Shown here piece by piece: positions 1 to 11,724 of a stretch of 11,724 nt of DNA. The stretch comes from Deltaproteobacteria bacterium RBG_13_61_14. Its GTDB lineage: Bacteria; RBG-13-61-14. The notes beneath the pieces were generated by a model. The model made no database searches. It had not been told where the DNA came from and was given only the letters and a program-made list of their open reading frames with translations. Location: NCBI GenBank assembly GCA_001797815.1, contig MGQK01000113.1, forward strand, positions 21,431 through 33,154, read 5' to 3'. Position 1 is the stretch's first letter; each line of letters starts with the position of its first letter. Position numbers and translations under genes: made by a program.

Positions 1-261
1 CCAGAGCGCCTTAAGCAGGAGCATCTCCGGCACCATCACCAGGAGCTCCCCGAGCAGGGAGGTGTGCCGGGGCTTGGTCCACCAGTTGAGCTGCTCCAGG
101 TAGGACCCGCCGTGGCCGACCCGCTCAAGGTCATGCGCCACCGGATACAGCTCCCAGCGCAGGTGCACGGGCAAGCGGTAAAACTTGACGGCCCGCGCCG
201 CCACGGACACCACCAGGGTGGCCAGCGACGCATACGTAATCACATGGAGTAATTCCGCCAT
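1..261 (-). CDS. NarI/DsrM/TmcC-like membrane cytochrome b subunit (N-terminal part, cut by window edge)
   Basis: The first 87 residues of a gene that runs off the left edge in an open frame. The start is the ATG at 261, preceded at a normal distance by a purine-rich GAGGAG site. The protein begins MAELLHVITYASLATLVV, a hydrophobic stretch at about residues 5-25 that looks like a first membrane helix. A conserved-looking soluble patch follows, with HLRWELYPVAHD at 33-44, GGSYLEQLNWW at 51-61 and then TKPRH. This pattern recalls the nitrate reductase gamma-like subunits of sulfate reducers (TmcC, DsrM and related cytochrome b proteins), which exchange electrons between haem b, the quinone pool and a partner HdrD-like iron-sulfur protein. 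It lies 51 bp downstream of the PEP-synthase-like gene and probably shares its transcript. The haem ligands and the partner gene are outside the window. The family assignment is from remembered sequence character, not a search. Confidence 0.62.
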   Translation of the reverse strand, partial: MAELLHVITYASLATLVVSVAARAVKFYRLPVHLRWELYPVAHDLERVGHGGSYLEQLNWWTKPRHTSLLGELLVMVPEMLLLKALW

Positions 262-312: not shown

Positions 313-2853
313 TCACCCGTTGTCGGATCCGCTCAGTTTGCTCCCTTTCATAAATTCCTCCAGGAACCATTGGGCGGCCCGGTCATCCGACAGGATCATG
401 TCCATCTGCTTGGTATAGACCGTGAGCCGGCCCAGCATCTGAAGCTGCTGCTCCATCTCCTCCCAGCCGCATTTCTCGGCCAGGGCCTCGATCAAGTCCT
501 GCCGGCGCCGGACCGAAAACCCGTGCCGCTCCAAAATGGCGGACAGCATCCACATCCGGCGGTCGCGCCGGTCCTGGGAAGCGGCCCCGCCCGCGAAATA
601 AAAGCGGATGTAGTTATCATTCCGGTTTCCCGTGCACAGGCCCTCGACGTTGGAAAGGTGATACCCCAGGCGCACGCTGAAGTTCATGTAGCTCTCGGTC
701 AGCACCGCCAGCGTCCGTTCCGCCAGCCGCCGCTGCAGCTCCGGCTCGGACAGGGTGTGGGTGAGCACGGAGAGGAACCCGCCGGCCGCGGGCCGCGGCT
801 TTGGCCAGGGGATGCTCTTCATCCCTTGCCAAAAGGCGCGCATGGGCAGGGAAACGATGTGCTCGGGCGTGATCGCCTCTCCCTTTTCGGTCGGTTTCAA
901 TCCCCCGCCCAGGTCCAGGATATGCACGTCCAGCGGGATGTCGCTCTGCAGCCGGATGGCCTCCCCGGCCTCCCGCGCCGCCTCCTCCGCGATCTTGAAC
1001 ATCTCGTTCATGGCCGCCTGGTGGAGGTAGCGGGTGAGGTCGTGGAAGCTCTGACACGACTCGGGCCGGAAATCGGGCTGGTCGGCAGAGATCAGCTTCA
1101 GCGGCGTAATCCAGGGCTGAATCCGCTCCAGCACCGAAAACACCGGCGTGTTCTGGAAAATGCCCGGCCGACCCCGGCCCCGCTCCAGGAGCTCTTCCAC
1201 CCGACCCGCGTAAACGCGGCGGCGGGTGGCATCCACCGTCACCTCCTGGCCCGGCCGCAGCACCTGGGTCGCCACCAGGGTATTGACCAGGGCCGGCACC
1301 TGGAATTCCCGGGCCAGGGTGGCCATGTGCCCGGTGGGGCTGCCCACGTCGGTCACCAGGGCCCGCACCTTGTTCATGGCGATCACGAGCTTGGGAGAGG
1401 AATTCCTTGCCACCAGGACTGCCCCGTTGGGCACCCGGGCCAGGTCCGACTCTTTTTCGAGAATAAACACCGGGCCGGCGCCCACGCCCGGCGCCGCGGT
1501 GGAACCCTGGCTGAGGAGCAACTGGTGGCGGGAGGGGTCCACCGCCACCGCGGCCTCGGGCCGGCGGGTGATCCGAAGCGGGCCGGTTTGCAAAACCAGG
1601 ATCTGGTCGTCCTGATCCTTCACCCACTCCATCACCTGCGGCATCTGGTAATATTGCTCCACGGTCCGGGCCACCTGCACAAGCTCCTGGACCTGCTCGG
1701 CAGTCAAGGAAGGCGCGTCCTGAAGCGACACCGGGACCGGCGCTTCCACGGTCCCCTCCTTCGAGGCCAGGGTCACCATCAACTCCTTGTGCGGCACCCG
1801 GGACTCGGTGATGATCCCGGCGCTCTTGGAAACCCGGAACCAGTCAAAGGTCGCCGTGCCCTTGACCAGATATTCGCCCAGGCCCCACACCGAGCTGATG
1901 ATCATCTCCTCCGACTGAAGCGCATTCGGGTCCACGGTCTGCAAGACCCCGCTGGCCTTGGCCTGGACCATGGCCACGCAGCCCACGGCCATGGCCGTCT
2001 CGTCCTCTTGAAAACCCCGGTTGACCAGGTAAAACAACGCCCGCGGGGAGAACTTGCTGGCCACGATCTCTTTGTAATAGCGCGGCACTTCCGCGCAGGG
2101 CACGTTCAAACAGGTGGCATATTGCCCGGCAAAACTGAACTCGCTCCCCTCTCCCACCGCGCTCGAACGCACCGCCAGCCGCTCCACCCCGCCGCGGAGC
2201 AACTCCGAGCAGGCGCCGGCAATCGCGCGCTCGATTCCTTCCGGCAGCGGGGCTTGCCGGATCCGCTCCTGGATGCGACGGCTAAGCTCCTCGGTGCCCT
2301 CGTAATCGTTGGTATCCACCTGGGCCAGGAGCAGACGGATCTCGTCCTGCAACCCCTGGCGCTCCAGGAAGACCTGGTAGGCATGGGCGCTGATCGCAAA
2401 GCCCTCGGGCACCTTGAGCCCCAGCCGGTTTTTCATCTCGCCCAGCTGCGCCATCTTGCCGCCCACGCTGTCGGCCCGCTCCCGGCCGAGGCTGGCCAGG
2501 GGGATGGTGAATTCATCCGCCGGGATTTCTTTTTTGCGCTTAAGCTCGGCCGCCACCTTCTGGTAAATCTCCTCGAACTTAGCGCGCAGGACCGGCTTCT
2601 TCCGGCCCGAGATCCCTTCCAGGTCCAAGAGAAGGTTGTTGACGGCCGAGGCCAAAGCCTCGGCATTGAGCCTTAAATACTCCATTTCGAACAGGTAATC
2701 CCCGCTGGACATATCCTTGAACTCGGCAATCAACCGCAACGCCACATGATCCTCCGCGAGCAAGTGCATGAACCGATCAAACTTTTCCCGCGCCAGCCGG
2801 CGCTTGCTGACTTTTCCCTTTCGGCTGAAGAGTTTTTTCAGGCTGCCGACCAC
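313..2853 (-). CDS. PEP synthase/PPDK-like phosphotransferase with atypical C-terminal domain
   Basis: An 846-residue soluble protein. The start is a GTG at 2853; an in-frame TGA lies three codons upstream and a GAGGG site just before it. Residues 1-110 are a charged helical region. Residues about 115-430 are the ATP-grasp PEP/pyruvate-binding half: DSVGGKMAQLGEM at 128-140, LAVRSSAVGEGSEFSFAGQY at 226-245, WGLGEYLVKG at 323-332 and LQTGP at 421-425. Residues about 445-555 are the swivelling phosphohistidine domain, with GSPTGHMATLARE at 504-516 and the likely phosphoryl-carrying His509. From about 570 to the end I find none of the PEP/pyruvate TIM-barrel motifs of PEP synthase. That part instead has LDLGGGL at 646-652 and GNRNDNYIRFYFAGG at 742-756. 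True PEP synthase makes PEP, AMP and Pi from pyruvate, ATP and water; this protein probably does only the nucleotide and phosphohistidine steps, with an unknown acceptor. It follows qmoC by 30 bp, so is likely co-transcribed with the APS pathway. Family-level call is good; function is unknown. Confidence 0.8.
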   Translation of the reverse strand: MVGSLKKLFSRKGKVSKRRLAREKFDRFMHLLAEDHVALRLIAEFKDMSSGDYLFEMEYLRLNAEALASAVNNLLLDLEGISGRKKPVLRAKFEEIYQKVAAELKRKKEIPADEFTIPLASLGRERADSVGGKMAQLGEMKNRLGLKVPEGFAISAHAYQVFLERQGLQDEIRLLLAQVDTNDYEGTEELSRRIQERIRQAPLPEGIERAIAGACSELLRGGVERLAVRSSAVGEGSEFSFAGQYATCLNVPCAEVPRYYKEIVASKFSPRALFYLVNRGFQEDETAMAVGCVAMVQAKASGVLQTVDPNALQSEEMIISSVWGLGEYLVKGTATFDWFRVSKSAGIITESRVPHKELMVTLASKEGTVEAPVPVSLQDAPSLTAEQVQELVQVARTVEQYYQMPQVMEWVKDQDDQILVLQTGPLRITRRPEAAVAVDPSRHQLLLSQGSTAAPGVGAGPVFILEKESDLARVPNGAVLVARNSSPKLVIAMNKVRALVTDVGSPTGHMATLAREFQVPALVNTLVATQVLRPGQEVTVDATRRRVYAGRVEELLERGRGRPGIFQNTPVFSVLERIQPWITPLKLISADQPDFRPESCQSFHDLTRYLHQAAMNEMFKIAEEAAREAGEAIRLQSDIPLDVHILDLGGGLKPTEKGEAITPEHIVSLPMRAFWQGMKSIPWPKPRPAAGGFLSVLTHTLSEPELQRRLAERTLAVLTESYMNFSVRLGYHLSNVEGLCTGNRNDNYIRFYFAGGAASQDRRDRRMWMLSAILERHGFSVRRRQDLIEALAEKCGWEEMEQQLQMLGRLTVYTKQMDMILSDDRAAQWFLEEFMKGSKLSGSDNG

Positions 2854-2883
2854 AATCCCTCAAACCTTTCCTTCCCTGCGCGA

Positions 2884-4074
2884 TCATGACGCCGGCACGG
2901 CCACGGCCTCGCCCGCCACCGACTCTCCTTTCTCCGCGTACCGGGCATAGACCATCGCCTCGGTCCGGTAGAAGAAATGGGCAAACTTCGAATAGGGCGA
3001 ATAGATCAGGAGCGCAAAGATCGTGACCAGGTGCACGAAATAAACCGGGTAAGCGACCTCGGGCGCATCCACGAAGCGCATGGTCTCGGCCAGCACCCCG
3101 GTGAGCGCCACCGTGGTCAGCACGAGCAGGAAGAACCAGTCAAAGTAACCGGTCTTCATGGTCGTGTCCTCGGTCGTCATCCGATTATAGACCATGAGGC
3201 CGCAGCCGAAAAGCAAGGCCGCGGCGCTCAAGTTGCCGAAAATTTTGACCGGGTGGGTGAGCGGCAGCGGGTAGGCCAAGAGGAAGCTGCCCTCAGCCAC
3301 CTCGGGCGCGACCAGGTGGACCACGATGATGCCCACCGCCACCGCGGTGGTGATCAAAAGCCCGATGAACCCGTAGAGCACGCCCAGGTGGGCGAAATAG
3401 CGCAGCCGGTTGGCCCCGCAGTCCTTGAACTTGCGATGAAGCAGAATATCCTGGATGGCCTCCACCGCGCTCAAGATCAAGCGCCCCAGGTCTAAATTTC
3501 CCAGGCGCAGCGGCTGGCCGCTCAGGTTCCGCCATAAGCGGAGCCCGCCGACCAGGAACGCGAGCGCCGCTAAGCCGGTAAAAAACGGGAAAAAGAGGTT
3601 CAGCGTCAGGTGCGAGAACATTTTGCTGAACTCGACCTCCCCCAACGGATAAAAGGGCTTGCCGGTGACGAGCAGCGTCAGGTAAAGGAGCACGGCCGGG
3701 ATGATGAAGACTAACGGCAGGAATACCGGCCGGGCCAGCAGCCGGCCCATGAATCGGGGAAAAGAAACCTCCTGGATGGTGAGCGCCCGGAGCGCGGCCA
3801 GGACGTCGCCCGGCCGGCTGCCGCGCGGACAATAGGTGGAGCAGTCCGTGCACTGGTGGCAGAGCCAGAGGTTGGGGTCCCGGAGCAATTGGTCCTTAAG
3901 CCCCCACTGGGCCCAGATCATTTCCTGGCGGGGAAAGGGGCGCGCGTCGGGCGAGAGGGTGCAGACCACCGAGCAGGTGGCGCACTGGAAGCATTTCTTG
4001 AGGCTCTCGCCCCCCTGGCCCATGACCCGGGAGATGTAGTCCGCATCCGGCCTGATCCGTATTAGCTCGGCCAT
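2884..4074 (-). CDS. qmoC: Quinone-interacting membrane-bound oxidoreductase subunit QmoC
   Basis: A 396-residue fusion of a HdrC-like iron-sulfur domain with a haem b membrane domain; it links the quinone pool to QmoAB. Two ferredoxin-type motifs are visible: C28, C31, C34, C38 and C72, C75, C78, C82 followed by proline. Six hydrophobic segments follow at about 114-136, 155-180, 226-252, 275-295, 311-331 and 341-360. Histidines in or near them (155, 229, 253, 274, 348) are candidates for haem b ligands. The frame stays open to an ATG at 4182 inside qmoB, but the ATG at 4074 is chosen because it has an ideal AAGGAGG site 8 bases upstream and gives the usual QmoC beginning, MAELIRIRPD. The gene starts 13 bp after the qmoB stop, so the two are probably translationally coupled. 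In the sulfate-reducing direction QmoC would oxidise menaquinol at the cytoplasmic membrane. Confidence 0.95.
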   Translation of the reverse strand: MAELIRIRPDADYISRVMGQGGESLKKCFQCATCSVVCTLSPDARPFPRQEMIWAQWGLKDQLLRDPNLWLCHQCTDCSTYCPRGSRPGDVLAALRALTIQEVSFPRFMGRLLARPVFLPLVFIIPAVLLYLTLLVTGKPFYPLGEVEFSKMFSHLTLNLFFPFFTGLAALAFLVGGLRLWRNLSGQPLRLGNLDLGRLILSAVEAIQDILLHRKFKDCGANRLRYFAHLGVLYGFIGLLITTAVAVGIIVVHLVAPEVAEGSFLLAYPLPLTHPVKIFGNLSAAALLFGCGLMVYNRMTTEDTTMKTGYFDWFFLLVLTTVALTGVLAETMRFVDAPEVAYPVYFVHLVTIFALLIYSPYSKFAHFFYRTEAMVYARYAEKGESVAGEAVAVPAS

Positions 4075-4082
4075 GAACAAGG

Positions 4083-4090
4083 CCTCCTTA
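4083..4090 (-). promoter_or_regulatory. qmoC ribosome binding site overlapping the qmoB stop codon
   Basis: Read on the minus strand the sequence is TAAGGAGG: the qmoB stop codon TAA (4088-4090) supplies the first bases of a near-perfect Shine-Dalgarno site. It ends 8 bases before the ATG at 4074. This decides the qmoC start over the in-frame ATG at 4182, and suggests that ribosomes ending on qmoB can re-start on qmoC, which would keep the two subunits in step. Confidence 0.8.
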
Positions 4091-6349
4091 CATCCCTTTA
4101 TAAGGGTTCGGCCCCACTCTCTTGATGGTTTCCATGAACTCGGTAAACAGGGCCGGCAATTTATCGTATTCATTGATCGCAAGCTGTTCCACCCGCACCC
4201 GCTCCGACTCCAGCACCAGCTTGGTCAGGGTCTCCTTGATGTTCTCCATGCGCCGGTTGGCCAGCTCGGAACCCTTGATGTAGTGGCACTGGTAGTCGTC
4301 CCCGTATTTGCAGCCGATGAGCAGGATCCCGTCAATCCCGCGCGCGAGCGCGTCCGCGATCCAGACCAGGTTGATGGACCCCAGGCAGCGCAAGGGAATG
4401 AACCGGATGTAGGGGTTGAGCTTCAGCCGGTGCAGCGCGGCCATGTCCACCGTCGGGTAGGCGTCGTTCTCGCAGATCAGCGCCAGCACCCGCGGCTTCT
4501 CCTCGTCTTCCTCGGGCACTTCGATCGCCTTGATCATGGACCCGATCATGTCCACGCTGTAGTTGGCAAAGGACACGATCCGCTCCGGGCAGGCCCCCAT
4601 GCACACCCCGCAGCGCCGACAGCGGTTGGGATTGGGCTTGGGCGTGCCCTTCTCGTCCTCATCCAGCGTCCCGAAGGGGCACTCCTCGGTGCAGCGCTTG
4701 CACTGGGTGCAGCGTTGCAGGAAGAATTCGGGAAAAGAGGCGTCGCCGGCGCGCGGGTGCACCGCTCTTCCCTGGCTGGTAAGCTCCACGCACTGAATGG
4801 CCTTCATCGCGGCCCCGGCCGCGTCTTCCATGCACGCCCGGCTGTCGGCGGGGCTGCGCATCGCCCCGGCCGCGTAGATGCCGGTGCGCTGGGTCTCATA
4901 GGGGAAACAAATATAGTGCGAGTCGGGGAATCCGTATTTCAGCACCGGCAGGTCCGGGCCCTGGCGGTAGGTGAGGTTAAGGATAGCCGTGCCCTGGTGG
5001 CGCTTAAGCTCCTCCACTTTCTTCTTGGCCTCGGCCAGTTGCACTTCGCCGGCGTCGCCCTTGGCAATCACCTTCTCCGCGTCCTCATAAGCCCGGATCG
5101 CCGGCCCGTCGGCCGAGACCGGGACCAAGCCGGTGGCCAGCACCACCAGGTCCGCCTCGATCTCGATCTTCTCGCCCACCAGCGTGTTCTCGGCCTCGAC
5201 CAGGAGCTTGTCGCCCGCGGCCGGCTTGACCGCGGCCACTTCACCCTTGGTGAAAAAGGTCCGGGGGCTTTGTTCCTGCACCTGCTTGTAGAAGTTCTCA
5301 TACTGCGCCGGGGTGCGCATGTCCTTGTAGATGATATAAAACAGCGCCTCCGGGTTCTGCTCGCGGAGATATACCGCCTGCTTGAGCGTGTTCATGCAGC
5401 AGATGCCCGAGCAGTAAGGCAGGTGGGCAGGGTCGCGGGAGCCGGCGCACTGGATAAAGACCACGCTCTGAGGCTGCTTGTGATCCGAGGGCCGGCGGAT
5501 GGCCCCGGTCTTGGCCATTTCCTCCACCTCCACGCTGCTGACCACGTTCGGGCTTTGACCATAGCCCAGGTGCCCGAGCTTCTTCGCGTCGTAAGGCTTG
5601 AAACCCGTAGCCATGATGATCGAGCCTGCGCGGAACGACTCCTTGGCGCCGTTCCGGGCGACGGTGACATCGAAGAGCCCGGGCTGGCCGGAGATTTCCT
5701 CGATCAGGGCCGAGGCGAGCACCTTGATCCTCGAGTGTTTCTGAACCGCCTGAACTTTTTCCGCCACCGGCGGCGCTTCCAGCTCCAGGTAAGGCGGCTT
5801 TTGCGGATAACTTTTGTGCAGGCGGTTCAAGAACCCGCCCAAATGGGCTTCTTTTTCCACCAGGACCACCGAGTAGCCGGCATCCGCGGCTTCCAGGGCC
5901 GCGCTGAGCCCGGTGATCCCGCCGCCCACCACCAGGATGGTCTTGTCCGTGGCTTCGAGATGCGGTTCGGGCAACTCGGTCTTCTTGGCCTTGACCAGCC
6001 CCATGCGCAGGTAATCGTCAGCCAGCATCTGGGTGTCTTCGTGCTTCGGCTCCTGGGTCCAGGCCACCTGCTCGCGCAGGTTCACCCGCTCCAGGATGAC
6101 TTCCGGCGGAAAGGAGAAGACCTCCCAGTTGTAGCGGGGCGAGCAGGCCCCGATCACCACGGTGTTGATCCCTTCCTGGGCCAGGTCCTCCCGGATCATG
6201 CCAGCGCCTTCCGGCCCGCACAGCGCCGGATGGCTCTTGCACAGGGCCGCCTTGCCCTCTTTCATGGCAAGCTTATTTAAGCTCACCAGGTCCAGGGCTT
6301 CGGAAAGCCCGCATCCCTCACACAAGTAAACGCCGATCTTCTTTTCCAT
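4088..6349 (-). CDS. qmoB: Quinone-interacting membrane-bound oxidoreductase subunit QmoB
   Basis: A 753-residue cytoplasmic flavin and iron-sulfur protein, built as an HdrA-like part fused to an MvhD-like part. It would carry electrons between QmoC and QmoA/AprBA. Domains in order: a short N-terminal region with C10, C13, C37 and C44; the FAD-binding fold with VGGGITG at 141-147; the HdrA signatures CAGSRD at 301-306 and CSGICC at 313-318; a second nucleotide-binding strand LVVLATG at 401-407; two [4Fe-4S] ferredoxin motifs (C547, C550, C553, C557 and C577, C580, C583, C587); then an MvhD/FrhD-like domain at about 618-750 with C626, C655, C680 and C688. The ATG at 6349 has an AGAGGA site. 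The length fits QmoB and sets it apart from QmoA, which lacks the C-terminal MvhD part. The gap to qmoA is 24 bp and contains part of a palindrome. Confidence 0.96.
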   Translation of the reverse strand: MEKKIGVYLCEGCGLSEALDLVSLNKLAMKEGKAALCKSHPALCGPEGAGMIREDLAQEGINTVVIGACSPRYNWEVFSFPPEVILERVNLREQVAWTQEPKHEDTQMLADDYLRMGLVKAKKTELPEPHLEATDKTILVVGGGITGLSAALEAADAGYSVVLVEKEAHLGGFLNRLHKSYPQKPPYLELEAPPVAEKVQAVQKHSRIKVLASALIEEISGQPGLFDVTVARNGAKESFRAGSIIMATGFKPYDAKKLGHLGYGQSPNVVSSVEVEEMAKTGAIRRPSDHKQPQSVVFIQCAGSRDPAHLPYCSGICCMNTLKQAVYLREQNPEALFYIIYKDMRTPAQYENFYKQVQEQSPRTFFTKGEVAAVKPAAGDKLLVEAENTLVGEKIEIEADLVVLATGLVPVSADGPAIRAYEDAEKVIAKGDAGEVQLAEAKKKVEELKRHQGTAILNLTYRQGPDLPVLKYGFPDSHYICFPYETQRTGIYAAGAMRSPADSRACMEDAAGAAMKAIQCVELTSQGRAVHPRAGDASFPEFFLQRCTQCKRCTEECPFGTLDEDEKGTPKPNPNRCRRCGVCMGACPERIVSFANYSVDMIGSMIKAIEVPEEDEEKPRVLALICENDAYPTVDMAALHRLKLNPYIRFIPLRCLGSINLVWIADALARGIDGILLIGCKYGDDYQCHYIKGSELANRRMENIKETLTKLVLESERVRVEQLAINEYDKLPALFTEFMETIKRVGPNPYKGM

Positions 6350-6361
6350 CTTTTCCTCTGA

Positions 6362-6388
6362 GTGCCACCGGTTTTAAACCGGTGACAC
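6362..6388. repeat. Palindrome at the qmoA-qmoB junction (GGTTT-n-AAACC core)
   Basis: CACCGGTTT (6366-6374) and AAACCGGTG (6376-6384) form a perfect 9-bp inverted repeat around a single T. Outside a C/A mismatch, GTG (6362-6364) and CAC (6386-6388) extend the arms to about 13 positions. It covers the qmoA stop codon (6374-6376) and its last codons as well as the spacer before qmoB. The core has the same design as the palindrome between aprB and aprA. No U-tract follows on the minus strand, so it is not a usual terminator. It may be a small dispersed palindromic repeat or an RNA processing or stability signal. Confidence 0.6.
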
Positions 6389-7627
6389 AAGAGTTTGAAT
6401 CGCCTTCAAGGCCGCGCCGGTCGCGTCCTGGATGGAATTGGCCACATCCGCGGGCCGCTTGGCCGTGCCCGCGGCCCCCGGGCCGCCGTTCCGGGCGACC
6501 AGGAACCCGAACTCGTCGCGGACGGCCGGGAGGGGCGGGTTGGCGCCCAATTCGGGCATCATGCCGGTGGCCAGCACCACCAGGTCCACGGTCTCCCGCC
6601 GCTTGCGGCCGGCCAACACTTCCTCCGCTTCCACCGTCACCCGGCCGGTGCCCGCCTCTTCGCTGACCTTGGCCACCTTGCCCTTGATCAGCTCAAGCCC
6701 GGTCTCGGCCTTGATCTTTTCCAGGAAATCTTCCATCCGGCCGAGCGCGCGCAGGTCAATGTAAAACATGTAGAGCTTGGCTTCCGGATATTGGGACCGC
6801 ACGTAGCTCGCCTGCTTGAGCGAGGCGAGGCAGCAGACCGAAGAGCAATAGGCCAGATGGTTTTCGTCCCGCGAGCCGGCGCACTGGACAAAGGCCACGC
6901 TCGAAACCGGCTTTAAGTCCGAAGGCCGCAAGATTTTGCCCTGGGTGGGGCCGTTGGCCGCGGCCAGCCGCTCCATGATCACGTTGGTGATGACGTTCGG
7001 GATCTTGCCAAAGCCCAAGTTGTCAATCTTCTCCGCCGGGTAAGGCTTCCAGCCGGTGGCATAGACCACGGCGCCGGCTTTCAGCTCGATAGTCTGCGGC
7101 TTCATCATCAGGTCTATCGCCTGATATTTGCAGGCGGACAGGCACTGGCCGCAGGAAACGCCGGGGCAGACCTCCGAGTCAATCACGTAGCGCATGGGCA
7201 GGGCCATCTCGTGGGGCAGGTAAATGGCCTTGGTCTGGTCCAAGCCGTAATTGAAGGGGTTCGGCCGCTCCTTGGGGCAGGCCGCGACGCAGGCGTCGCA
7301 GGCCGTGCATTTCTCGTTGACCAAGCGGGGCTTCAGTTCCACCGTGGCGGTATAATTTTTCGGCTCGCCCGTGATCCGGGTGACCTCGGCCAGGGTGTGG
7401 ATCTTGATCTTGGGGTTGCTGCGCAGCCGGCGGTAGTTGATCTCCAGCCCGCAGAAGGGAGGGCAGAGCTTGGGGAAATACAGGTTCAATTGGGCAACCC
7501 TCCCGCCCAGGGAGGGAGATTTTTCAAGTAAGGTGACTTCGTAGCCGGCCTCGGCGGCTTCCAGGGCCACGGTGATCCCGCTGATCCCGCCGCCGATGAC
7601 GAGGATGTTTTTCTGCTCGGCACTCAT
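6374..7627 (-). CDS. qmoA: Quinone-interacting membrane-bound oxidoreductase subunit QmoA
   Basis: A 417-residue HdrA-like flavoprotein, cytoplasmic; with QmoB it forms the soluble part of the Qmo complex that exchanges electrons with APS reductase. The FAD-binding motif IGGGISG is at 11-17, with LGGRVAQLNLYFPKL just after. A first cluster motif is C107, C110, C113, C117 followed by proline; a second set is C154, C159, C162, C166. The HdrA signatures CAGSRD (249-254) and CSSVCC (261-266) match those of QmoB, consistent with common descent of the two subunits. LVVLATG at 349-355 is the second dinucleotide-fold strand. The ATG at 7627 has a GGAG site about 9 bases upstream. It begins 42 bp after the YkgJ-like gene. 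The length agrees with QmoA and it has no MvhD-like extension. Confidence 0.96.
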   Translation of the reverse strand: MSAEQKNILVIGGGISGITVALEAAEAGYEVTLLEKSPSLGGRVAQLNLYFPKLCPPFCGLEINYRRLRSNPKIKIHTLAEVTRITGEPKNYTATVELKPRLVNEKCTACDACVAACPKERPNPFNYGLDQTKAIYLPHEMALPMRYVIDSEVCPGVSCGQCLSACKYQAIDLMMKPQTIELKAGAVVYATGWKPYPAEKIDNLGFGKIPNVITNVIMERLAAANGPTQGKILRPSDLKPVSSVAFVQCAGSRDENHLAYCSSVCCLASLKQASYVRSQYPEAKLYMFYIDLRALGRMEDFLEKIKAETGLELIKGKVAKVSEEAGTGRVTVEAEEVLAGRKRRETVDLVVLATGMMPELGANPPLPAVRDEFGFLVARNGGPGAAGTAKRPADVANSIQDATGAALKAIQTLVSPV

Positions 7628-7669
7628 CGGATGACTCCATCTTCTGGGAGCGGCCGCCGCCGGGACGGG

Positions 7670-8551
7670 CTAGCCACTCCGTTTCTCCTGGGGCGCGATG
7701 CCCCGAAGCTGGGTTTGGGCCCATTCCCGGGCTTCCTTTTTCAACTCCATGATCGGCTCGCCGAACAGGGCGAAGCAGAGCCAGCGGAAGCCGAACTTCA
7801 TGAGTTCGAGGTCATCGTCCCGGAGCTTGGCTTCCAGGCCGGGTTCGATCTGGAAGCGTTTGAGGAAGCTGCTTTCAAACACAAACTGACGAAACTTGTC
7901 GAGGTTGTAGCAGGCCTGGTAAAACATCTCCATCTGGCCGGGGTCCAGGTTCTGGCCCTTAAGCAGCCGGGGATGGAGGCTGATTTCCTTGAACAGCTCG
8001 CCCAGGGCGTTGTATTGGTCAATGCCCTGCTCGGAAAGCCACTGGCGGATGGTCACCGAGCGCTGGGCTCGGTTTCGACCCGAGCTCACCGTCGAGGGTT
8101 CGTGACCGGCGCAGGGCTCTTCTTTCATCAAGAAGAAAAATTCTTGCTCGTTCGGCACCCGCTCCCCTGACTTCGCCGGCGAGGCCAGGCCCAACGGATA
8201 CATCCGGCAGGCCCAGGGCCGGTCGGGATAGACCGAGCAGCCCTGCGCACCGACAAAGGGGCAGGACTTTTTTTCGTTTTCGAGAAGGCGCAGGATCACC
8301 ACCGGCACGCGCGATTCCTGGTCAAAGGGGATCAAGGTGTAGCGGGTGAGGAATTCTTCGGACGAGATCCCCAGCCCCCGCTTGAGGCGGAGGACATCAT
8401 AGGGGGTGAGGGCAATGGTGACGTCGGCGCAGCAGACCGTGAAGCAGGAAACGCCGGGCCCGCAGGCAAAAGCGAAGGAATCGTCCCGTCCCAGGCGCGG
8501 ATATTCCTGGAGGATGGTTTCTTTCAACCGCTGTTGGTCGGAAAAATTCAT
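7670..8551 (-). CDS. YkgJ-family cysteine-cluster protein
   Basis: A 293-residue soluble protein with no signal peptide. Cysteines are grouped as expected for the YkgJ (CxxxxCxxxCC-like) family: C30, C36, C40, C41 in FACGPGVSCFTVCC, then C97, C105, C115 in SCPFVGAQGCSVYPDRPWAC, and C147. These probably bind a metal, zinc or an iron-sulfur cluster; which one has not been settled for the family as far as I know. The C-terminal half (about 170-280) has no motif I recognise. The ATG at 8551 lies 6 bp after the stop of the zinc-ribbon gene and has only a weak GAGTGAG site, so translation probably depends on ribosomes arriving from upstream. The place between aprA and qmoA suggests a helper role for the Apr or Qmo proteins, such as cluster assembly or protein contact; this is inference. 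Residues about 151-168 look like an inserted loop and overlie a small inverted repeat. Confidence 0.82.
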   Translation of the reverse strand: MNFSDQQRLKETILQEYPRLGRDDSFAFACGPGVSCFTVCCADVTIALTPYDVLRLKRGLGISSEEFLTRYTLIPFDQESRVPVVILRLLENEKKSCPFVGAQGCSVYPDRPWACRMYPLGLASPAKSGERVPNEQEFFFLMKEEPCAGHEPSTVSSGRNRAQRSVTIRQWLSEQGIDQYNALGELFKEISLHPRLLKGQNLDPGQMEMFYQACYNLDKFRQFVFESSFLKRFQIEPGLEAKLRDDDLELMKFGFRWLCFALFGEPIMELKKEAREWAQTQLRGIAPQEKRSG

Positions 8552-8557
8552 GGTTGC

Positions 8558-8839
8558 TCACTCTTTCCGGTCGTGGTCCGGAACAATCCGGTCCTTGAGC
8601 GCGCCCGGCGACCAGACCGGGAGCGGCCCGGACCTTCCGGTCTTCGGGTCGAGGCGGTGGCGATAGGACACGCGGACCTGGTATTGGCTCTGCATCCATT
8701 CCCAGCCGCGCACGTAATACGGACACTCGTCGTTAAAACACACATACAGAAATTCGCTTTCCCAAGAAAGTTCGGGGGAACTTTGCCACTGGGACATGGT
8801 CTGACCGCAGTGCGGGCATGTTGGAGAGCTGTCGGACAA
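8558..8839 (-). CDS. Small zinc-ribbon protein (ogr/Delta-like zinc finger type)
   Basis: A 93-residue protein with one four-cysteine zinc ribbon: C8 and C11 (CPHC), then C34 and C39 (CFNDEC). The aromatic segment PYYVRGWEWM follows, then SYRHRLDP and GPLPVWSPGALKD near the end. The whole resembles the ogr/Delta-like zinc finger proteins found beside apr and qmo genes in sulfate reducers, as I recall them. The start is taken as TTG at 8839: it keeps the first cysteine pair and has AAGGA 9 bases upstream. The frame is also open up to an ATG at 8953, but that start lies inside aprA and would translate the hairpin at 8864-8898. An ATG at codon 15 would lose two metal ligands. The role is unknown; metal delivery, protein contact with AprBA, or RNA binding are all possible. 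Confidence 0.8.
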   Translation of the reverse strand: MSDSSPTCPHCGQTMSQWQSSPELSWESEFLYVCFNDECPYYVRGWEWMQSQYQVRVSYRHRLDPKTGRSGPLPVWSPGALKDRIVPDHDRKE

Positions 8840-8848
8840 AACTACCAA

Positions 8849-8853
8849 TCCTT
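8849..8853 (-). promoter_or_regulatory. Ribosome binding site for the zinc-ribbon gene (supports the TTG start)
   Basis: On the minus strand an A-rich run ends in AAGGA, 9 bases before the TTG at 8839. The other TTG in the same frame, at 8848, touches this site and is too close to be served by it. This spacing is the main reason for choosing the 8839 start. The site lies just after the aprA hairpin. Confidence 0.5.
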
Positions 8854-8863
8854 TTTTGAGAGG

Positions 8864-8898
8864 GGATTCCTCCCGGCGCCCGGCGCCGGGAGGAATCC
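8864..8898 (-). repeat. 17-bp perfect inverted repeat (strong RNA hairpin) just after aprA
   Basis: GGATTCCTCCCGGCGCC (8864-8880) and its exact reverse complement (8882-8898) flank a single C. The hairpin starts 15 bp past the aprA stop codon and ends 25 bp before the zinc-ribbon start. The stem is long and GC-rich and must form in the transcript. The minus-strand sequence after it is CCTCTCAAAAAAGG, with no U-tract, so it is not a standard intrinsic terminator. It could block 3' exonucleases and leave aprBA message more abundant than the qmo message, or cause partial attenuation. The roles are inference; the inverted repeat is seen directly. Confidence 0.8.
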
Positions 8899-8913
8899 GC
8901 CTGATTTCGCCGG

Positions 8914-10809
8914 TTACACGATCGAGACCACCGGACGTTTCAGCATTTCCCACTTATCGGCCTTGGGGTCGTACTTGCAGTTGGCAAAGGCAAGCCACTC
9001 CTGCTTCATCTCCGGGAAGTCGGCCCGCCGGTAATAGCCCGGCCACCGGGTCTCTTCGCGGAAGAGGATGGTGCGGACGTGCGCCTCCGCCTGCCACATG
9101 CGTTGCACGTTCTCCCAGCACCGCATCAGCTCGTGCAGGTCTTCGGCCGCCAACTTGGTCGAGTCTTCCTTGAGATAGGCGAGCAGTTCCAGCGCCCGCT
9201 CCAGGCCGACCTTGTTGGTGCAGAACTGGGCCGAGACGCCGCCGGCGTATTCGTCCATGATCTTCTGCAGCCGGAACATGAACATCTTGGGCTTGATGAA
9301 TTCGGGGTTGATGTTGGGGTCGCTGGACTTGCCCTTGTTTTCCTGGAACGTGTCCAGCGGTTTGGTGATCTCGGACTGCAGTTTCTGCGCCTCGGCGTTA
9401 TCCACCTTGGGCTGGGTGTTGTTCTCGACGATGAAGCGGATCGCTTCCTTGGCCGCGATCCGGCCCTCGGCATGGGAGCCGGACGAGAACTTGTGGCTGG
9501 AAGCGCCCGTGGCGTCGCCGGCGCAGAACAGGCCCTTGACCGTGGACATGTGGCCGTAGCCCCAGAAGTAGCCGGCCTTCTTGGTCGCCTCGGTCTGCAG
9601 GTCTTCCGGCCCGCTCACCCAGGCGCCGGAAGCGCCGGAGTGCGAGCCGATGAAGTAAGGCTCGGACGCGGCGATCTCGGAGGACTTGACTTCCGGCTCC
9701 ACGTTGGTGCTGGCCCAGAGGATGGCCTGGGAAATGGTCATGTCCAGGAAGTCTTCCCACGCCTCGGATTCCAACTCCTTGAGTTTTTTCTTTCTCTCTT
9801 TCTCGTCCACGACGGCCGAGGCAATCTTCTGGATCGCTTCCTCGGTCCGCATGTAGATGGGCCCCTTGCCGGCCATCAGATCGAGCATACCCAGCCAGTT
9901 GCGGAGGTTAGCCGGCACCGGCTTCACCTTGCCGTAGGGCCCCCATTTTTCCAGCTCGCCCTTGTTGGTCTGCATGTAGTCCTCGCCCATGGCATTGGTG
10001 GCGCGGGACTTGAAGAGCAGGAACCATGCGCCCACCGGGCCATAGCCGTCCTTGAACCTCACCGGGATGAAGCGCACTTCCTGGCAGGTCATCTCCGCGC
10101 CCGCCCGGATGGTGAAATAAGCGCTCGAGCCCGAGTTCCAGGGCGGATACCAGGCGCGGCCAAGGCCTTCCCCGGTCGAGCGCGGCTTGAACACGTGGAC
10201 CGCGCCGCCCATGGCCGCGAGCACCGCCTTGGCCTTGAACACGTAGAACTTCTCTTCCCGCACGCTGAAGCCGACGGCGCCGGCAACGCGATCGCCGTCG
10301 AGCAGCGGAGCGACCACAAAGACGCGCTCGAAAATCTGACCCTTGTCGCCCAGGCTGGACATGTGGTTCTTGGCCGCCTCGGCCACCACCACCTTGTAGG
10401 ACTCGCCGTTGATCATAAGCTGCCAGCGGCCTTCGTGCACATACTTGCCGGCCTCGTCTTTCCAGATGGGCAGGCCCCATTTCTCAAAAAGGTGCACGGT
10501 GGAATCCACGTGCCGGGCGATGTTGGCCACCAGGTCCTCCCGGGTGATGCCCATGAGGTCGTTGCGCACGTAGTTGATGTAATCCTTGAGCGTGTTCTCG
10601 CCGTCCTTCAGCCCCACATACTGGTTGATGGCGGAAAGACCCATAGCCACGGCGCCGGAGCGGTCCATGGCCGCCTTGTCCACCACCACCACCTTGAGGC
10701 CGTGCTTCTTGGCCCAATAGGCCGCTTCCACCGCGGCCCCGCACGCGGCCATGCCCCCGCCCAGGATGAGCAGGTCGGTTGTTACTTCAACAGTTTGAAA
10801 GTTCGCCAT
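8914..10809 (-). CDS. aprA: Adenylylsulfate (APS) reductase alpha subunit AprA
   Basis: A 631-residue FAD protein of the fumarate reductase superfamily, cytoplasmic, catalytic subunit of dissimilatory APS reductase. It interconverts APS and AMP plus sulfite. The dinucleotide-binding motif LGGGMAACGAAVEAA is at 16-30, followed by VDKAAMDRSGAVAMG at 43-57. The active-site segments are plain: RFIPVRFKDGYGPVGAWF at 246-263 (Arg251 probably the substrate-binding arginine) and IGSHSGASGAWVSGP at 387-401 (His390 probably the conserved active-site histidine). CAGDATGASSHKFSSGSHAE at 429-448 is the FAD-contacting strand. The end, with WPGYYRRADFP, is typical of AprA. The ATG at 10809 has a perfect TAAGGAGG site. 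It lies 55 bp after aprB and forms the AprBA heterodimer with it. The gene looks intact and its residues support a working enzyme, but not the direction of the reaction. Confidence 0.98.
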   Translation of the reverse strand: MANFQTVEVTTDLLILGGGMAACGAAVEAAYWAKKHGLKVVVVDKAAMDRSGAVAMGLSAINQYVGLKDGENTLKDYINYVRNDLMGITREDLVANIARHVDSTVHLFEKWGLPIWKDEAGKYVHEGRWQLMINGESYKVVVAEAAKNHMSSLGDKGQIFERVFVVAPLLDGDRVAGAVGFSVREEKFYVFKAKAVLAAMGGAVHVFKPRSTGEGLGRAWYPPWNSGSSAYFTIRAGAEMTCQEVRFIPVRFKDGYGPVGAWFLLFKSRATNAMGEDYMQTNKGELEKWGPYGKVKPVPANLRNWLGMLDLMAGKGPIYMRTEEAIQKIASAVVDEKERKKKLKELESEAWEDFLDMTISQAILWASTNVEPEVKSSEIAASEPYFIGSHSGASGAWVSGPEDLQTEATKKAGYFWGYGHMSTVKGLFCAGDATGASSHKFSSGSHAEGRIAAKEAIRFIVENNTQPKVDNAEAQKLQSEITKPLDTFQENKGKSSDPNINPEFIKPKMFMFRLQKIMDEYAGGVSAQFCTNKVGLERALELLAYLKEDSTKLAAEDLHELMRCWENVQRMWQAEAHVRTILFREETRWPGYYRRADFPEMKQEWLAFANCKYDPKADKWEMLKRPVVSIV

Positions 10810-10833
10810 GATCTTCCTCCTTAGATCTGCGGG

Positions 10834-10854
10834 GAACAGGTTTGAAACCTGTTC
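10834..10854. repeat. Palindrome in the aprB-aprA spacer (GGTTT-n-AAACC core)
   Basis: GAACAGGTTT (10834-10843) and AAACCTGTTC (10845-10854) form a perfect 10-bp inverted repeat around one G, within the 55-bp gap between aprB and aprA. It ends just upstream of the aprA ribosome binding site. It shares the core GGTTT-n-AAACC with the qmoA-qmoB palindrome, which suggests two members of one small palindromic repeat family. It could also modulate aprA translation or mRNA stability. There is no U-tract on the minus strand. Confidence 0.65.
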
Positions 10855-10864
10855 TCCTCAGCGA

Positions 10865-11302
10865 TTACAGCTTGGCCACGCCCGACATCCCCAAGGAGTC
10901 CGGCTCGGTGAAGAGCAGCGGGCTCTTGAGGTCATCGGTCCCGGTCTTCCAGCCGCCATCGGGAACGGCCTTGCCCTCTTCCGTGGTCCGGATCGGGAAC
11001 TTGAACCGCTTGAGCTGGCCGTTGCGGAATTTGACCGTCCACATGATCGAGTCCGAGCTCCGCAAGGGCACCACGTTGGCGCCCAGAGGCACGAAGTCCG
11101 CATAGCCCCGGACTTCCACGGCCTGGGTGGGGCAAATCTTGACACAGTTGTAGCATTCCCAGCACATCTCCGGCTCCCGGTTGAACGCCTTCATGATTTC
11201 CTTGTTCAGGACCATGAGGTCGTTGGGGCAGATGTGCTGGCAGGCGGTCTTATCGAGCGCCTTACACCCGTCGCACTTCTCCGGAATCACAAAGCTTGGC
11301 AT
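10865..11302 (-). CDS. aprB: Adenylylsulfate (APS) reductase beta subunit AprB
   Basis: A 145-residue iron-sulfur protein that passes electrons between the donor (probably Qmo) and the FAD of AprA. Two [4Fe-4S] motifs are clear: C10, C13, C21, C25, where the longer gap between the second and third cysteine (KALDKTA) is a mark of AprB, and C47, C50, C53, C57 followed by proline. The region after residue 60 (RGYADFVPLGANVVPLRSSD) and the tail ending GMSGVAKL form the AprB-specific part that wraps AprA. The ATG at 11302 has an AGGAGG site. It is the first gene after sat, with a 127-bp spacer, and is followed by aprA in the usual aprBA order. Length is normal for the family. Confidence 0.97.
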   Translation of the reverse strand: MPSFVIPEKCDGCKALDKTACQHICPNDLMVLNKEIMKAFNREPEMCWECYNCVKICPTQAVEVRGYADFVPLGANVVPLRSSDSIMWTVKFRNGQLKRFKFPIRTTEEGKAVPDGGWKTGTDDLKSPLLFTEPDSLGMSGVAKL

Positions 11303-11335
11303 GAATAAATCCTCCTGTCTCCATCGTCAATTTCG

Positions 11336-11351
11336 GGGCTGAATCCAGCCC
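11336..11351. repeat. Small inverted repeat in the sat-aprB spacer
   Basis: GGGCTG (11336-11341) and CAGCCC (11346-11351) can pair around the loop AATC. It lies in the middle of the 127-bp spacer between sat and aprB. It is short and has no U-tract on the minus strand, so it is weak evidence for any signal. The rest of the spacer is purine-rich on the transcribed RNA strand and shows no convincing promoter. Confidence 0.35.
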
Positions 11352-11429
11352 GCTACCTAACCCTCCATTCCCTTTGAGCCTATTCCCGACTTTTCCTTTT
11401 GCTGCCCCCCTCTCTATTCTTGATTTCCT

Positions 11430-11724
11430 TTACTTCTTCTCCACATCCCCGGTGGCGAACTGGTGGAGTTTGATTTCCACTTTCTTTTCCAGATTGGCGT
11501 AATAGTCCTTGAGCACTTCCAGCACCTCGGGCCGGCTGAAGTCGGCCGGGACTTCCGCCCCCTCCGAGAGCATCTTGCGGAGCAGGGTGCCGCTCAAGAG
11601 CAGCCGGTCTTCCTTGCCGTGCGGGCAGGTGCGGTTGCTGGCCATGCCCCGGCACTTCGAGCAGAAGAAGGTCCAGTCAATGTTGAGCGGCTTCAGCTCG
11701 AGCGAGCCTTTGGGGATCTCGTTA
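11430..11724 (-). CDS. sat: Sulfate adenylyltransferase (ATP sulfurylase) Sat, C-terminal part, cut by window edge
   Basis: The last 97 residues of a gene that enters from the right edge in an open frame; the start is outside the window. The segment has [17 protein letters not shown], where the CxxC pair and the later cysteine and histidine are the zinc-binding site typical of bacterial and archaeal Sat. It is followed by [15 protein letters not shown] and [14 protein letters not shown], both hallmarks of the C-terminal domain, and the end [14 protein letters not shown]. Sat makes APS and pyrophosphate from sulfate and ATP in the cytoplasm, or runs in reverse in sulfur oxidisers. An internal ATG at 11645 lies within this conserved part and is not the start. 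It is the first gene in view of the sat-aprBA-qmoABC block. Confidence 0.95.

Follow-up and report, generated by a model that had tools for sequence, protein, structure and literature searches.

A gene for a relative of PEP synthase (PEPS) lies directly behind qmoC in Deltaproteobacteria bacterium RBG_13_61_14, and the question it raises is what such a protein may do among the genes of sulfate respiration. A literature search found no paper naming a dikinase beside qmoC. To our knowledge it is largely unresolved how, in sulfate reducers, the ATP invested by Sat, the release of AMP and PPi, and the delivery of electrons by Qmo are matched to the supply of sulfate, and a conserved PEPS relative with an altered ATP site in the apr-qmo operon is a concrete, testable candidate for that matching.

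The gene and the sulfur island around it

The window, that is, the whole stretch of 11,724 nucleotides that was analysed, holds the ORF where the preliminary description had placed it, 3' of the qmoC stop and on the same strand, and a purine-rich stretch precedes its start. The sulfur neighbourhood described there was also found again, sat, aprB, aprA, qmoA, qmoB and qmoC all being recognised by NCBIfam or Pfam. The upstream order, on one strand, is sat, aprB, aprA, Ogr/Delta-like zinc-finger gene, ykgJ-like gene, qmoABC. The genes of the window are:

1..261, (-) strand: start of the next gene, a membrane protein (about 250 aa in L012), which precedes a DsrK-like protein
313..2853, (-) strand: gene of the PEP-synthase-like protein (846 aa), starting with GTG 30 bp past the end of qmoC
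2884..4182, (-) strand: qmoC (NCBIfam/Pfam); the listed ORF runs into qmoB
4088..6349, (-) strand: qmoB (NCBIfam/Pfam)
6374..7627, (-) strand: qmoA (NCBIfam/Pfam)
7670..8551, (-) strand: ykgJ-like CxxCxxCC protein; a homologue lies 3' of the PEPS-like gene in genomes G022, G041 and G042
8558-8953: Ogr/Delta-like zinc-finger protein, between aprA and the ykgJ-like gene
8914..10809, (-) strand: aprA (NCBIfam/Pfam)
10865..11302, (-) strand: aprB (NCBIfam/Pfam)
11430..11723, (-) strand: sat, C-terminal end (NCBIfam/Pfam)

The true start of qmoC is probably the ATG near 4074, since the family match begins at residue 45 of the listed frame. Downstream of the PEPS-like gene follow the membrane protein, the DsrK-like protein and a CoA-disulfide-reductase-like flavoprotein with a rhodanese domain, and further on dsrA, dsrB, cbiA/dsrN, dsrC, a ferredoxin and dsrMKJOP, where dsrC and dsrMKJOP were named by eye, from sequence resemblance. 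With sat-apr-qmo upstream and the dsr genes downstream, the PEPS-like gene thus lies midway in an island of dissimilatory sulfur genes.

It was also possible to follow sat, aprBA, qmoABC, dsrAB, dsrN, dsrC and dsrMKJOP as one island of about 27 kb (window 313-11723 and L012 1320-19998); dsrD was not seen 3' of dsrB within the stretch of the island that was read. The membrane protein and the DsrK-like protein make up a second DsrMK-like pair (L012 14334-16710), located between the PEPS-like gene and the flavoprotein and separate from dsrMKJOP, and the score of its DsrK-like member was 343.9 bits, the cut-off for DsrK being 400. The ykgJ-like and zinc-finger genes occupy the same place, between aprA and qmoA, in several lineages (L209, L217, L224-L227).

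Domain order and known relatives

The ATP-grasp half and the phosphohistidine domain with His509, which had been read from the letters alone, were both recovered by Pfam, as PPDK_N (E 1.6e-84) and as the PEP-utilisers mobile domain (E 2.8e-19). In addition to what had been described, the protein has about 110 residues before the ATP-grasp domain and about 290 after the swivel domain. Its parts are:

2512..2853, (-) strand: N-terminal segment, residues 1-114; helical in a low-confidence model, with no Pfam match above cut-off
1549..2472, (-) strand: ATP-grasp domain (PPDK_N), residues 128-435; K133, R229, T247, E409 and Q422 kept
1222..1431, (-) strand: phosphohistidine swivel domain (Pfam PEP-utilisers mobile domain), residues 475-544
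1327..1329, (-) strand: His509 codon; invariant in 88/88 homologues
316..1188, (-) strand: C-terminal domain, residues 556-846; invariant H604, D605 and H611, near-invariant R608

Residues 1-114 and 556-846 gave no confident match to any known family. The C-terminal domain had no Pfam or NCBIfam match and its family consensus no PDB sequence match, and residues 550-846 had zero Pfam matches even at E 10, which implies that the PEP/pyruvate-binding barrel is absent. A motif C...HD..R..H(E/Q) in this domain (residues 600-612, window 1018-1056) is conserved in the family, although three of the four proteins linked to qmo have Ile in place of the Cys, and it is possibly an acceptor or metal site. 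AlphaFold models of the C-terminal domain (pLDDT 56) and of the whole protein (pLDDT 48), built with only five sequences, were of low confidence, and a structure search with the model of the C-terminal domain gave no hit with E below 0.001 or with Z of at least 8.

Homology extends over the full length, N- and C-terminal parts included; most members match over about 800 residues, with 33-45% identity. Judged from its sequence, the window protein belongs to a PEPS-like family of sulfate reducers whose members have four parts, a helical N-terminus, an ATP-grasp, a phosphohistidine swivel and a C-terminal domain, as delimited in this analysis with a tree of 83 rows. Apparent fusions of 1067-1364 aa among the homologues carried no added domain that passed its Pfam cut-off, and their length seems to come from ORF starts set too far upstream.

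PEP synthase itself (pyruvate, water dikinase; TIGR01418) has the same type of ATP-grasp and the same swivel histidine in the same order, with E down to 2e-63 between the window protein and solved PEPS, but the window protein lacks the barrel and has the extra N-terminus and a distinct C-terminal domain. Its score with the TIGR01418 equivalog is 321.9 bits, below the cut-off of 739.75, and with the barrel absent as well, a genuine PEP synthase was rejected. PPDK (TIGR01828) shares both domain types, but here the score is 39.5 bits against a cut-off of 843.45, and the sequence of the nucleotide site is PEPS-like: the ATP-grasp domain matched PEP synthases at E about 1e-40, whereas PPDK aligned over only 35-45 N-terminal residues at E about 0.2. 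The rifampin phosphotransferase (RPH) and the HpeHI/PpsAB dikinases likewise join an ATP-grasp and a swivel to a different acceptor domain, and the window protein could be aligned to 5hv2/5hv6. The swivel of RPH is C-terminal (PMC4844700), whereas it is central in the window protein (475-544 of 846), and the counterpart of the acceptor domain shows no sequence match.

The family, its neighbours and its link to qmo

The genome of the window has two full paralogues, C132 (41% identity) and C67 (38% over the best part), and one scan of its contigs gave only three loci. The C67 paralogue lies near a TauE/SafE gene (L015 6333-11190), like family members elsewhere, and C132 is followed by genes which by eye resemble a histidine kinase, a response regulator and a DASS-type symporter (L014 8799-18730). 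In two other genomes of the same phylum no family member was found at the E threshold used.

The neighbours of the family are of a recurring kind. Among 55 family regions, two-component proteins were found in 47 and TauE in 26; DASS sulfate/anion symporters and CBS proteins each occurred in 19, and Usp proteins in 10. All are nearly absent from 70 qmoC regions, a contrast which is somewhat inflated because the family regions themselves supplied the queries and which was made against qmoC operons, not random regions. The recurrent gene orders are DASS-CBS-PEPS-two-component and TauE-x-PEPS-two-component.

The proposed association with sulfate respiration was borne out by co-occurrence with qmoC and by operon linkage in two phyla, and more loosely in a third lineage. 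Three genomes of another phylum (G022, G041, G042) have the order sat-aprBA-qmoABC-TauE-homologue-ykgJ; their homologues are 44-45% identical to the window protein, and one TauE/SafE gene separates each of them from qmoC. The third lineage (G427) shows apr-zf-ykgJ-qmoABC-sat and then, on the same strand, a more distant homologue and TauE, with about 6.5 kb from qmoC to the PEPS-like gene. In this lineage sat is separated from the PEPS-like gene by two tandem genes that by eye resemble cytidylate kinase (L209 10540-12219), and such a gene is also near homologues in four other regions.

The placement 3' of qmoC is not general in Desulfobacterota, where the homologue was present in 0/60 fetched stretches around qmoC, so that sulfate respiration there needs no homologue beside qmoC. 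A general replacement of qmoD, whose place the gene had been said to hold, was rejected for the same reason.

In a domain-wide sample of 386 genomes, with a homologue threshold of E 1e-120, qmoC was found in 10 of the 11 genomes with a homologue as compared to 27 of 386 overall (Fisher p 5e-12). Within 198 Desulfobacterota, 68 had homologues, 69 had qmoC (64 over cut-off) and 52 had both, which is qmoC in 52/68 homologue genomes against 69/198 overall (p 5e-19). Both p-values ignore phylogeny and shared ancestry, and scoring was limited to a few top candidates in each genome. The homologues might have turned up mostly in non-sulfur organisms, an outcome the preliminary description had named as one that would speak against it; instead, the genomes that carry them mostly have qmoC.

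ATP-site residues and possible roles

The four qmo-linked proteins, from four genomes only, form a clade with an SH-aLRT of 99, and of 89 when the ATP-grasp domain is left out (quick trees). In an alignment of 88 members, exactly three conserved positions are lost in 4/4 of them, D236, D407 and R424, and no other. The number of conserved positions in the 82 other members is 134, 104, 70 and 56 at 85, 90, 95 and 97%, and the same three are lost every time. All of them fall in the ATP-grasp domain, at the ATP site, where the window protein has G, V and G:

2146..2148, (-) strand: G236 codon; Asp in 80/82 other members, D124 of RPH-Lm
1633..1635, (-) strand: V407 codon; Asp in 81/82 others, D295 of RPH-Lm
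1582..1584, (-) strand: G424 codon; Arg in 82/82 others, R311 of RPH-Lm

We take positions 407 and 424 to be D321 and R337 of C. symbiosum PPDK, which are presumably required for catalysis. The solved PEP-synthase and RPH sequences keep the equivalents of all three wherever the alignments cover them, and the G427 protein has lost D236 alone. Kept in the window protein are K133, R229, T247, E409, Q422 and H509, which correspond to K22, R117, T136, E297, Q309 and H825 of RPH-Lm (numbered by counting along the alignment, and for H825 from the matching domains). The qmo clade keeps His509, K133, R229, E409 and Q422, and H604, D605, R608 and H611 of the C-terminal domain. In RPH, three of these residues position the nucleotide, K22 and, at the alpha-phosphate, R117 and T136, whereas even Glu297, which coordinates Mg, can be dispensed with (PMC4844700). 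Losing D236, D407 and R424 may alter catalysis rather than abolish it.

The residues on the alpha-phosphate side, the swivel histidine and the C-terminal HD..R..H site are kept while three residues are lost, which makes a pseudo-dikinase the most likely explanation. The protein would bind an adenylate (AMP, ADP, ATP or APS) and would no longer run the normal cycle from ATP to AMP and Pi, and a movement of the swivel or a partner would control how sulfate is taken up, or how it is activated at the step of Sat, Apr and Qmo. We give this adenylate-binding regulator a probability of roughly 0.45; the loss of catalysis, the ligand and the regulatory output are what we infer from the observed anatomy, clade, residue loss, operon linkage and co-occurrence. 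Sensing of adenylates or regulation, which the preliminary description had listed as alternatives, is now the best reading. A precedent is PspR of Haloferax mediterranei, a PPS-like protein turned repressor (PMC10948481): it too is a PEPS relative, a regulator without enzyme activity, as would be supposed for the window protein. PspR differs in having the RPH-like domain order, and DNA binding was demonstrated for it. In a narrower version, which we think decidedly unlikely, the pseudo-dikinase would be a sensor of APS, or of AMP as Apr releases it. The lost residues are expected at the beta- and gamma-phosphate and metal end and the alpha-phosphate side is kept, so that in this version the protein could read the flux through Sat and Apr, and its swivel would then gate the entry of sulfate or the activity of Apr/Qmo; if true, such a sensor would be a dedicated controller encoded within the sulfate-activation operon.

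Two main rivals have to be weighed against a pseudo-dikinase. One is an enzyme altered but still at work as a dikinase or phosphotransferase, its nucleotide site having been rebuilt, in which His509 would pass its phosphoryl group to an acceptor at the C-terminal domain, in the manner of RPH and HpeHI on small molecules. The residues kept by the qmo clade in both domains are consistent with it, as is the likeness in architecture to these small-molecule dikinases (PMC4844700, PMC12167813), but almost all of the 82 other members retain the residues at the three lost positions, as do the solved PEPS and RPH sequences where the alignments cover them, and we regard this activity as improbable, if the best placed of the rivals. 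Scarcely more doubtful is that the protein is an accessory of anion transport, a partner of TauE- or DASS-type permeases for sulfate, sulfite or thiosulfate and not of Apr/Qmo. The frequency of TauE (26/55) and DASS (19/55) in family regions, the TauE gene that separates qmoC from the homologue in G022, G041 and G042 or adjoins the homologue in G427, and the uptake of thiosulfate suggested as a role for a Desulfovibrio cluster (PMC4001038) all point this way, but no permease adjoins the window gene, whose next genes encode DsrMK-like electron-transfer proteins.

That the gene is an operon passenger with no part in sulfate respiration would suit the Desulfobacterota, most of whose qmoC regions are without a homologue, and the sister lineages, where an FAD oxidoreductase directly follows qmoC; it is quite improbable for a linkage that recurs in two phyla with TauE and ykgJ partners, and for a clade with a targeted change that keeps every other conserved position. 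Regeneration of ATP by way of His509 from the AMP of Apr and the PPi of Sat, the PPDK half-reaction first proposed, has the domain kinship and the place of the gene among the Sat/Apr and Qmo genes in its favour, but we hold it for very improbable because the ATP-grasp is of the PEPS type, the barrel is absent, D236, D407 and R424 are all lost only in the qmo clade, and adenylate kinase and membrane H+-PPase genes are present in 4/4 qmo-linked genomes.

A second precedent for a regulatory role, and one for which the PEPS relative with its altered ATP site also offers a frame, is the unexplained nitrate-resistance cluster of Desulfovibrio, DVU0251-DVU0245, which includes the TauE gene DVU0251, a kinase, the regulator DVU0247 and the PPDK-like DVU0246 and confers sensitivity to nitrate (PMC4001038). 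Compared by annotation only (domain composition and neighbours), DVU0246 resembles the window protein in having PPDK_N and the mobile domain and in lying beside TauE, a histidine kinase and a response regulator, and differs in its own cluster, with no apr or qmo gene listed, and in its 2235-bp gene. Mutants of the TauE, regulator and PPDK-like genes were alike in their resistance to nitrate (PMC4001038).
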